This document shows positions 18,680-22,200 of a DNA stretch of 64,000 bases, one piece after another; position 1 is the first letter of the stretch, and the number at the start of each line of letters is the position of its first letter. Position numbers and translations under genes: made by a program. Below the pieces are notes generated by a model. It did no database searches. It saw only the letters and a list, made by a program, of their open reading frames with translations, and was not told where the DNA came from. Source of the stretch: Gloeobacter violaceus PCC 7421 (lineage in GTDB: Bacteria > Cyanobacteriota > Cyanobacteriia > Gloeobacterales > Gloeobacteraceae); assembly GCF_000011385.1 (NCBI RefSeq), contig NC_005125.1, positions 2,480,001 through 2,544,000 of the forward strand, written 5' to 3'.

Positions 18680-18766
18680 TACTTAACATTTTAGCGGACC
18701 GCCGGACAGAGGAAACGGCAGTTTGCCTATGCCATCGTGGAATCGTTGTGCGAGAGGACTTGCTGC

Positions 18767-19582
18767 ATGAGCCGGCGTGCCGTACTGTGGGCAACAACCT
18801 TCGTGATGCTTGCGAGCGTGTTTGGTCTGCCCGTTCAATCCCAGATGCTCAGCAACCTGCTCGGCCCGTTGCTGGAGGCGTGGATCCGCACCCAGGTCCA
18901 GCAGGTAGACGACCTGCGCGTTGCGGTGAGCGGACCGGATAGCGAAGTGGCGGGCGGGCGCATCCAGAGTATCGAAATTTCTGGCCGCAACATTGTCTAC
19001 GAGGGAATTCCCGCCCGCTCGCTCGCGATGCGCGGCTCCGACATTCGCCTGGATACTCGCGGCAGTCTGGCAGGCGGCGGGTTGCGCCTCGAAAAGTCCG
19101 TCCTTGCCGATCTGGCCTTGCGCCTCTCCGAGCAGGACATCAATACCTACCTGGCTTCCCGGGCCTTTCAAGACCAGGTGCGCGATCTCAAAATTACGCT
19201 GCCTGCACAATTCGGCGGTGACGGCACGACGCAGATTCCGCTCGAGATCCGCAACCCGCGCGTGCGGCTATTGGCCGACCGCCTGGAAGTCCAGGCCGTG
19301 GTGCGCCTCGAAAACGGCGAACCGGCTGCGTTGCGCTTAGCCAGCGGCGTGGCGGTTGCCTCCCCGCGCGAACTGCGGCTTGTGGAGCCCCGCATCGTCT
19401 CCGAGAACGGTCAGAGCGCTCCTCTCGAAGCGCTCGTCAATCTGCCCATCTTGCTTGGGCCGGAAGTGGAAGTGCGGCGGGTGTCCCTGACCCCCGGCAT
19501 GCTCGTGCTGGAAGGTTCCTACCGCATCGAGGCCGCCCCGCCGGTGGCGGGCGCTGCGGACCGACGCCCGCAGGTACGCTGA
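18767..19582 (+). CDS. Exported DUF2993 (LmeA-like) lipid-binding protein
   Basis: The 271-residue protein has a signal peptide (AVLWATTFVMLASVFGLPVQS) and then the DUF2993 pattern: LLGPLLEAWIRTQV, the repeated GGRIQSIEISGRNIVYEGIPA, and LSEQDINTYLASRAFQD in the middle. The family is related to LmeA, a periplasmic phospholipid-binding protein of mycobacteria. Cyanobacteria have several members of unknown role. ATG 18767 is the chosen start because the signal peptide begins there; the longer GTG 18737 frame adds a cysteine-rich stub. Confidence 0.8.
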   Translation: MSRRAVLWATTFVMLASVFGLPVQSQMLSNLLGPLLEAWIRTQVQQVDDLRVAVSGPDSEVAGGRIQSIEISGRNIVYEGIPARSLAMRGSDIRLDTRGSLAGGGLRLEKSVLADLALRLSEQDINTYLASRAFQDQVRDLKITLPAQFGGDGTTQIPLEIRNPRVRLLADRLEVQAVVRLENGEPAALRLASGVAVASPRELRLVEPRIVSENGQSAPLEALVNLPILLGPEVEVRRVSLTPGMLVLEGSYRIEAAPPVAGAADRRPQVR

Positions 19583-19586
19583 GGCG

Positions 19587-20138
19587 TTACGGCGGTGCCG
19601 TCGTCATCGAATCCTGGTTGGCTTCCAGACGCGCGGTTCCCCAACCCCTGGCCTTCTGGGAGGCGCGCAGAATAAACGCGGCCAGATTCTGAGCTTCGTC
19701 GTCTTCGATCCAGTCGCTCTTGCGGCAGTTGAAAGTCTCCTCGCTGCCGTCGTAGCTCATCGGCAGGCGCATGTACTGCACCAGAGACTGAATGTTGTCC
19801 CGTGGGGGGGTGGCTCCCTGCAGCTTGGCAAGCGCCAACGAGACTTTGGGGTTGGGCGTGGTGGTGCCCCCCACGTGGCAGTTCTGGCAGTTCGATTCGA
19901 ACAGTTTCTTGCCGGCGTAGATCTGCTGGGGGCTGAAAGTCTGCAAATTGCCCACCCCGTCGGCCGGCAGGTCCACCGGTCCACGCACCCCCAGGTTGAC
20001 GGTGACGTACTTGTCTTTGAGTGCGGCGGCGTCCCTGTCGTCGTCTGCACCGCTACAACCCGCAAGCAGCAGGCCGCACAGGCCCAATACAAAGGCGCTG
20101 CGCAAAGTCGAGGCACGCCGACAATGCCCGAACGTCAT
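19587..20138 (-). CDS. PsbV2-like c-type cytochrome, lipoprotein, predicted His/Cys haem ligation
   Basis: The 183-residue protein has a lipoprotein signal (LLLAGC, Cys28), one haem site CQNCH (84-88), and the PsbV core GATPPRDNIQSLVQYM followed by SYDG. Where cytochrome c550 has its distal haem His, this protein has Cys138 in the segment ETFNCRKSDW, 50 residues after His88. PsbV2 of Thermosynechococcus has exactly this His/Cys ligation, as I recall. AGGGGGA lies 8 nt before the ATG. It follows a second PsbV-like gene by 33 nt, and both should face the periplasm. Confidence 0.85.
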   Translation of the reverse strand: MTFGHCRRASTLRSAFVLGLCGLLLAGCSGADDDRDAAALKDKYVTVNLGVRGPVDLPADGVGNLQTFSPQQIYAGKKLFESNCQNCHVGGTTTPNPKVSLALAKLQGATPPRDNIQSLVQYMRLPMSYDGSEETFNCRKSDWIEDDEAQNLAAFILRASQKARGWGTARLEANQDSMTTAPP

Positions 20139-20171
20139 AAAGATTCCCCCTGTATCTATAGAGTGCCCGAG

Positions 20172-20672
20172 CTAGCGGGTGTCCTTGCCCTGGCCCCAGT
20201 TGGGGTTGGAGGTCGCTTCTTTGATAATGTGCCCGGCAATCAGCCGCAGCTTTTCGTCGCCCAGACCCGTGAAGGAGGCGTGCTCGCCCGTCTTTAGCAG
20301 GTCGGTCCGGCCGTCGTAGCTCGTCGGCTTTTTCATGTAATCGACCAGGCCGGCGACGGTGTTGCGCGGCGGGGTGGCATTGGTCAGCGCGTCGTAGGAC
20401 AGGCTGACGTCGGTGCTGTTGTAGGTGCCGTAGGTCTGGCCGCCGACGTGGCAGCGCCCGCACTCGGCCTGGAACAGCTTTTTCGCCTGTTTGAGATCGG
20501 CGGTGCTGAAGTTTGAAAGCTCACCGGTGGCGGCGGAGACCACGTCCGGTTTGGCGACCGGGGCGGGCTCGCTGGGTGCTTCAGCGGTGGTGCTCTGCTC
20601 GCCGCCGGCACAACCGGCCACGGCCAGGGCAAGGGCTAGGGTCGCTAGCCGTCCGAACTGCCTGCTAAACAT
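20172..20672 (-). CDS. psbV: PsbV-like cytochrome c550, lipoprotein form
   Basis: From ATG 20672 the 166-residue protein has a lipobox (LAVAGC, Cys21), a Pro/Ala linker, one haem site CGRCH (71-75), and the c550 core NATPPRNTVAGLVDYMKKPTSYDG. His131 (KTGEHASF) is placed as the distal ligand, so bis-His ligation is expected. PsbV normally stabilises the oxygen-evolving complex and is exported as a soluble protein; a lipid anchor is unusual. AGGAGAAC precedes the ATG, while an upstream in-frame TTG at 20696 would put it inside the coding frame. Confidence 0.87.
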   Translation of the reverse strand: MFSRQFGRLATLALALAVAGCAGGEQSTTAEAPSEPAPVAKPDVVSAATGELSNFSTADLKQAKKLFQAECGRCHVGGQTYGTYNSTDVSLSYDALTNATPPRNTVAGLVDYMKKPTSYDGRTDLLKTGEHASFTGLGDEKLRLIAGHIIKEATSNPNWGQGKDTR

Positions 20673-20692: not shown

Positions 20693-20893
20693 TCAACTGC
20701 GGGGTTCCTCGATCAGCTCGACACGGGGGTGGTTGCGCACCTCCAGGATGATACGCTTGGCGTCCTCGAGGGCGAGTTGGCTGTGCTCATCCTGAAAAGG
20801 AATATCAAACCGCCGGCAAATAGTGAAGACCTGGGCGATATTCAGACCGTAGTCCTCGGCCAATGCAGCGATCGAAACGTCTGCAAATCCCAT
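20693..20893 (-). CDS. Small conserved protein with IF2-N-like helical fold
   Basis: The 66-residue protein (MGFADVSIAALAEDYGLN start, ATG 20893) has the short helical pattern ALAEDYGLNIAQVFTICRRFDI and LALEDAKRIILEV, similar to the N-terminal domain of IF2 and to a small cyanobacterial family. It ends 20 nt before the psbV-like pair in the same direction, so the three may form an operon. No function is known. The 11 extra N-terminal codons of the longer frame look unconserved. Confidence 0.6.
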   Translation of the reverse strand: MGFADVSIAALAEDYGLNIAQVFTICRRFDIPFQDEHSQLALEDAKRIILEVRNHPRVELIEEPRS

Positions 20894-20994
20894 GGCACTT
20901 CCCTGACAGGCGTGATCCCACCCCATTGTGCATCATTCGGTCCGTTGCGCATAGATTTCGGCAAGGCCCGCCTGCACCGGCCGTCAGACGGGAT

Positions 20995-21810: not shown

Positions 21811-22200
21811 TTATTTGATAGTCAGCGTGCCGACCATGCCGGTGCTCTTGTGGGGGGTGCAGTAGAAGGCGTAGTCTCCCTTCTTGGCGTTGGCCGGAAT
21901 GGTCGAAATGTAGGAATCTTTGGGTTTGTTGAGCAGCTTGCTCTGGCTCATCGCCTTCGCCCCGGCCGGGTCGGCCGACTTGGCGGCATCGAAGACGGCA
22001 TTATGGGGGCCGGCCTTGTTCATCGTCCATTTGATCGTATCGCCGGGTGCCGCGTCGATCTTGGCAGGGACGTAGACAAGCCGGCCGGTGTCGGCACCCA
22101 TCTTGACTTCGATTTCTTTGGCACCGGCAGCCAGGCCAGTGGCGCAGACCGCCACCAGGGCAGCCAGCGAGCAAGCTGCAAATTTAGACCATGAGATCAT
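21811..22200 (-). CDS. petE: Plastocyanin precursor (PetE)
   Basis: Plastocyanin is the periplasmic/lumenal copper protein that carries electrons from cytochrome b6f to photosystem I. The 129-residue precursor has a signal peptide (FAACSLAALVAVCATGLAAGA) and all four copper ligands: His66 in GPHNAVF, and Cys114, His117 and Met122 in YCTPHKSTGM. ATG 22200 is preceded by CCTCCGAA and GGAG. It sits 20 nt after gatB in the same direction, and a terminator follows. Confidence 0.96.
   Translation of the reverse strand: MISWSKFAACSLAALVAVCATGLAAGAKEIEVKMGADTGRLVYVPAKIDAAPGDTIKWTMNKAGPHNAVFDAAKSADPAGAKAMSQSKLLNKPKDSYISTIPANAKKGDYAFYCTPHKSTGMVGTLTIK

Follow-up and report, generated by a model that had tools for sequence, protein, structure and literature searches.

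Cytochrome c550 (PsbV) is treated as a soluble extrinsic subunit of photosystem II (PSII). In thylakoid-less cyanobacteria PSII resides in the plasma membrane and its donor side opens to the periplasm, a large space that extends unbroken along the cell, which raises the question of how such a cytochrome is kept beside the photosystem. The question is posed directly by two adjacent genes in a 64,000-nucleotide stretch of the Gloeobacter violaceus PCC 7421 genome (NC_005125.1, positions 2,480,001 to 2,544,000; hereafter the window, whose numbering is used throughout), both of which encode PsbV-like cytochromes with a predicted lipoprotein signal. The features of the pair, and the evidence for each, are as follows.

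20172..20672, minus strand: psbV (cytochrome c550), divergent short-loop, predicted lipoprotein form, 166 aa (PF14495, tree, structural model)
20610..20627, minus strand: PsbV lipobox LAVAGC, predicted lipidated Cys21 at 20610-20612
20535..20609, minus strand: PsbV flexible Ser/Ala/Pro/Glu-rich tether from the predicted lipid Cys to the haem domain (model pLDDT)
20448..20462, minus strand: PsbV haem motif CGRCH (residues 71-75), His75 proximal ligand (sequence)
20280..20282, minus strand: PsbV His131, predicted distal ligand (invariance in the order and loop spacing)
19587..20138, minus strand: psbV2, predicted lipoprotein form, 183 aa (TIGR03046, 4LJI match, Foldseek)
20055..20072, minus strand: PsbV2 lipobox LLLAGC, predicted lipidated Cys28 at 20055-20057
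19875..19889, minus strand: PsbV2 haem motif CQNCH (residues 84-88), His88 proximal ligand (sequence)
19725..19727, minus strand: PsbV2 Cys138, predicted distal ligand (family invariance and alignment with 4LJI)

Family identity of the gene pair

The two genes, which we take to be gll2337/gll2338, are both on the minus strand, with psbV2 33 bases downstream of psbV. PsbV is numbered from the ATG at 20672; starting instead at the in-frame TTG that lies 24 bases upstream would give a protein of 174 aa. Translation of the open reading frames bore out the motifs described in the original prediction, namely a lipobox in each protein (ending in Cys21 of PsbV and Cys28 of PsbV2) and a single CxxCH accompanied by the PsbV core. 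Just upstream of psbV, between pyrH and psbV and on the same strand, is a 77-aa ORF (20693-20926, minus strand) without a Pfam match, while the gene convergent with psbV2 (18737-19582, plus strand) encodes an LmeA-like phospholipid-binding protein (PF11209, 93.9 bits).

The pair was compared with its counterparts in nine genomes of the Gloeobacterales (G000-G008), the thylakoid-less cyanobacteria. Near relatives are Aphanocapsa lilacina HA4352-LM1, two Gloeobacterales MAGs and Candidatus Cyanaurora vandensis (L132), the last of which is included in the order sample. The distinct sequences comprised 177 PsbV (9 from the order and 168 from outside) and 106 PsbV2 (9 and 97, respectively). The proposed membership of both proteins in the PsbV family is supported by a Pfam search, in which PsbV and PsbV2 matched PF14495 (Cytochrom_C550) at 137.8 and 147.8 bits, above the cut-off of 27. 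The downstream protein scored 252.9 bits against TIGR03046 (PsbV2; curated equivalog cut-off 148.35), and its best match, both in a sequence search of the PDB (E 2.6e-41) and in Foldseek (E 9.4e-13), was PsbV2 of Thermosynechococcus elongatus (4LJI). The upstream protein reached 106.7 bits against TIGR03045 (PsbV), under the curated equivalog cut-off of 177.75, a value attained in none of the nine Gloeobacterales genomes. The best match of its structural model is a PSII-bound PsbV (chain V of 4yuu, Z 14.9), with PsbV2 of 4LJI at Z 14.8; the models show the fold without haem.

In a 130-sequence tree that used cytochrome c6 as the outgroup, Gloeobacterales PsbV (100/92) is sister to all other PsbV, the joint clade being supported at 95/87, and the PsbV2 group (93/88) is separate from the upstream protein. 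As both clades contain members of the order, the PsbV/PsbV2 duplication predates the split of the Gloeobacterales. The PsbV2 side of the tree is poorly resolved, and the Gloeobacterales PsbV2 do not form one clade there. By profile and tree the upstream protein is a divergent sister branch of PsbV, and by its TIGR03046 score the downstream protein is an ordinary PsbV2. The divergence of Gloeobacter PsbV and the psbV-psbV2 pair, whose adjacency is also present in other genomes, were already known, as was the His/Cys ligation of PsbV2.

Haem ligation and the distal loop

The original prediction assigned His/Cys haem ligation to the downstream protein. Cys138 lies exactly 50 residues after His88, the same spacing as in T. 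elongatus PsbV2, and aligns with the ligating position of 4LJI, which is Cys in all 97 PsbV2 compared. A search for another distal His in the protein found none after the CxxCH His, which, with the invariance of the Cys, indicates that the predicted His/Cys ligation is a PsbV2 family trait, already known from 4LJI. The residues are thus as predicted, and the arrangement is not special to this genome. The window's PsbV2 resembles that of T. elongatus in its TIGR03046 score, its CxxCH, its distal Cys spacing and its adjacency to psbV, but carries a lipobox rather than a type I signal, has two residues fewer after the Cys and has a longer C-terminal tail.

In the upstream protein the His reported at the distal place, His131, was confirmed by translation. 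It lies 56 residues after His75 and is the sole post-haem His that is invariant in PsbV of all nine Gloeobacterales genomes. His148 and Met113 were rejected as distal ligands; G006 and several PsbV from elsewhere have another residue at the former position, and the latter is not invariant. MAFFT does not align His131 with His92 of canonical PsbV, the loop of the order being shorter. The last helix follows the distal ligand at a distance of 14 residues in eight of the nine PsbV of the order (26 in G006, which has a different, longer loop); the 162 other PsbV that were scored all have 23 (6 of the 168 were unscored). The same distance is 14 residues in PsbV2 of the order, 16 in other PsbV2 and 15 in most cytochrome c6. 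Canonical PsbV therefore carries, after the distal His, 9 inserted residues that the Gloeobacterales lack, and the similar spacing to the last helix places His131 like the Met of c6 and the Cys of PsbV2. This supports, by inference, a bis-His haem in PsbV of the order, carried on a short, c6-like distal loop.

Relative to the PsbV of PSII (1MZ4, 1S5L; TIGR03045, PF14495), the window's protein shares the fold (Z about 13-15), the CxxCH, the YDG core and a conserved C-terminal Lys plus three residues. It differs in the missing insertion, in its score below the TIGR03045 cut-off, in a 3-residue insertion after the haem motif and in having a lipobox followed by a disordered tether. In the model, almost every one of mature residues 1-26 has a pLDDT below 50, and 40-51 residues separate the predicted lipid Cys from the first haem Cys in the nine PsbV of the order.

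Distribution of the lipobox among cyanobacteria

Lipoboxes were called by pattern (regex) and by eye. PsbV carries one in all nine Gloeobacterales genomes versus none of the 168 sequences from other cyanobacteria; PsbV2 carries one in eight of nine, versus no clear case among the 97 from elsewhere, where three are ambiguous. Outside the order the pattern matched two PsbV (L336 and L340) and four PsbV2, each of which was inspected. In both PsbV the pattern falls in the n-region before Arg-Arg or upstream of the real start, and the PsbV2 match in L013 was likewise discarded as lying upstream of the real start or in the n-region; in the ambiguous PsbV2 (L071, L129 and L263) the Cys lies 5-12 residues before an AxA site. 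Conservation across the order in divergent orthologues, combined with absence outside it, rules out a chance lipobox. The sole member of the order without a PsbV2 lipobox is G006, whose PsbV2 (L029:1474-1965) has a type I signal (GPLQA-Q), showing that a lipid anchor on PsbV2 is not indispensable. The same protein has an odd CHLAG haem surrounding.

Genes for Lgt and LspA are present in all nine Gloeobacterales genomes, and the window's two proteins thus combine a lipobox after a hydrophobic stretch with the genes for lipoprotein processing, the combination used here to recognize a lipoprotein. The lipoprotein signals first noted on this one pair accordingly recur through the order, and the anchor predicted from the lipobox holds across the clade as a trait of thylakoid-less cyanobacteria. 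This order-wide signal strengthens the suggestion, made in the original prediction, that lipid anchors could hold both cytochromes to a PSII exposed to the periplasm. As all cases fall in one clade, a single evolutionary event, or two, may account for the correlation between the lipobox and the lack of thylakoids.

Three other proteins rule out that the Gloeobacterales lipidate their secreted proteins in general. No lipobox was found in the six cytochrome c6 of the order, plastocyanin (21811-22164 in the window) has a type I-like signal, and so do most PsbU matches, which are themselves weak; G007 PsbU has a possible LLSC. PsbO is usually called soluble. A lipobox Cys was, however, observed in PsbO of all nine Gloeobacterales genomes (LTGCGSD in the window's own genome, L188, and LTAC in others) and of at least 9 of 15 other cyanobacteria (loci L168-L192). 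The PsbO lipobox also occurs in many thylakoid-bearing species, and an extrinsic subunit can therefore bear a lipobox in the presence of thylakoids as well; a lipidated PsbO would be a wider trait and, unlike PsbV, no marker of the thylakoid-less order. The lipobox of CyanoP is kept in those Gloeobacterales members whose start was read, and a standard lipobox has been noted in Gloeobacter Ycf48 (PMC8038367).

No report of a lipidated or lipobox-bearing PsbV or PsbV2 was found in the open-access literature, to which the search was confined, subscription papers lying outside it. A 2025 comparison of signal sequences that included Gloeobacter dealt with the hydrophobicity of the H-region (PMC12341915).

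Proposed tethering at the plasma membrane

Taken jointly, these data make it likely that PsbV, and probably PsbV2, is tethered to the plasma membrane beside a periplasm-facing PSII. We infer lipidation, docking onto PSII and the function of the anchor as follows. Both proteins would be exported by Sec, diacylglycerylated by Lgt at Cys21 (PsbV) and Cys28 (PsbV2) and cut by LspA. Lipid and flexible tether would then keep both cytochromes at the periplasmic face of the plasma membrane near PSII, the haem being predicted to be bis-His in PsbV and His/Cys in PsbV2, and PsbV would cap the PSII donor side, just as cytochrome c550 caps it in other organisms. The anchor may stand in for lumen confinement of a soluble extrinsic subunit: a soluble protein freed during repair would diffuse off, while an anchored one would stay in the plane of PSII. 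Thylakoid-less cyanobacteria thus probably hold both cytochromes on the cell membrane rather than confining them in a closed compartment.

The proposed anchor has parallels among known proteins. CyanoQ, Psb27 and CyanoP are cyanobacterial PSII lipoproteins of the donor side, lipid-anchored as the pair is predicted to be, but contain no haem. None of the nine Gloeobacterales genomes yielded a match to CyanoQ (PF05757) or Psb27 (PF13326), while the same search matched them in 9 and 15, respectively, of 15 other cyanobacteria. The absence of Psb27 from Gloeobacter, and the poor conservation of its PsbO, PsbU and PsbV, were noted earlier (PMC7368068). In Synechocystis lacking CyanoQ, PsbV is destabilized, according to Kashino 2006 as cited in PMC12661325, and accumulation of CyanoQ requires its own lipid anchor (PMC5033237). 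The anchor of the cytochromes may assume part of the docking role of CyanoQ, and an anchored PsbV could make CyanoQ dispensable. In Blastochloris viridis a diacylglyceryl Cys anchors the cytochrome PufC to the type II reaction centre on the periplasmic face (PMC7322399). The predicted arrangement in Gloeobacter is alike, a c-type cytochrome held by a lipid Cys on that face of a type II reaction centre, although PufC has four haems and an unrelated fold and is the electron donor of the reaction centre. OmcF of Geobacter (3CU4), which we take to be a lipoprotein, has the same single-haem, c6-like fold (Z 10.6) but is an outer-membrane protein of a non-phototroph.

Other readings bear on the history and the partner of the anchor. 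It is possible, though doubtful, that the anchored form with its short loop came first and that soluble, long-loop PsbV arose with the evolution of thylakoids. The short loop shared by PsbV and PsbV2 of the order, other PsbV2 and the c6 outgroup is consistent with this history, as is the fact that the change coincides with one phylogenetic split in both paralogues. However, the type I signal of outgroup cytochrome c6 favours a soluble ancestor, two sister groups cannot fix the root state of the anchor, and G006 demonstrates that the anchor can be absent inside the order. It is unlikely that one or both cytochromes, while lipidated, serve outside PSII as membrane-tethered low-potential electron carriers or periplasmic redox enzymes. 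In favour of such a role, all cytochrome chains of the PSII structures matched in the PDB searches are PsbV and none is PsbV2, His/Cys ligation is known in redox enzymes of the SoxA family (PMC4423706), and the short-loop PsbV also resembles c6-type carriers (Z 12.5 to cytochrome c6). Conversely, the upstream protein clusters with PsbV, is structurally closest to the PSII-bound form and keeps the C-terminal Lys and three residues in all nine genomes of the order. It is very improbable that the lipobox-like Cys is incidental and that signal peptidase I frees both cytochromes into the periplasm in soluble form, as happens in other cyanobacteria. AVA-G before the PsbV Cys could also pass for an AxA site and the G006 PsbV2 is clearly type I, but [AGS]-Cys ends the hydrophobic stretch in 17 of the 18 proteins of the order despite divergent signal peptides and is followed by a typical lipoprotein linker (CSGG, CAGG, CGGQ), no such Cys occurs in the 168 PsbV from outside, and the processing genes are present.

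Tethering of the pair beside PSII therefore remains the preferred reading. A further, rather speculative scenario is that the PSII cytochromes of pre-thylakoid cells were attached to the plasma membrane by lipid and had a short, c6-like haem loop. With a closed lumen both paralogues would have lost the anchor and PsbV would have gained the 9-residue insertion, such that its signal peptide and loop would record the origin of thylakoids. If the tethering is correct, a lipid anchor on both cytochromes would be a molecular answer to the problem of keeping water oxidation assembled on a membrane that faces the periplasm, and the lipid-anchored pair would mark, in a testable way, the transition of photosynthesis from the plasma membrane to thylakoids.
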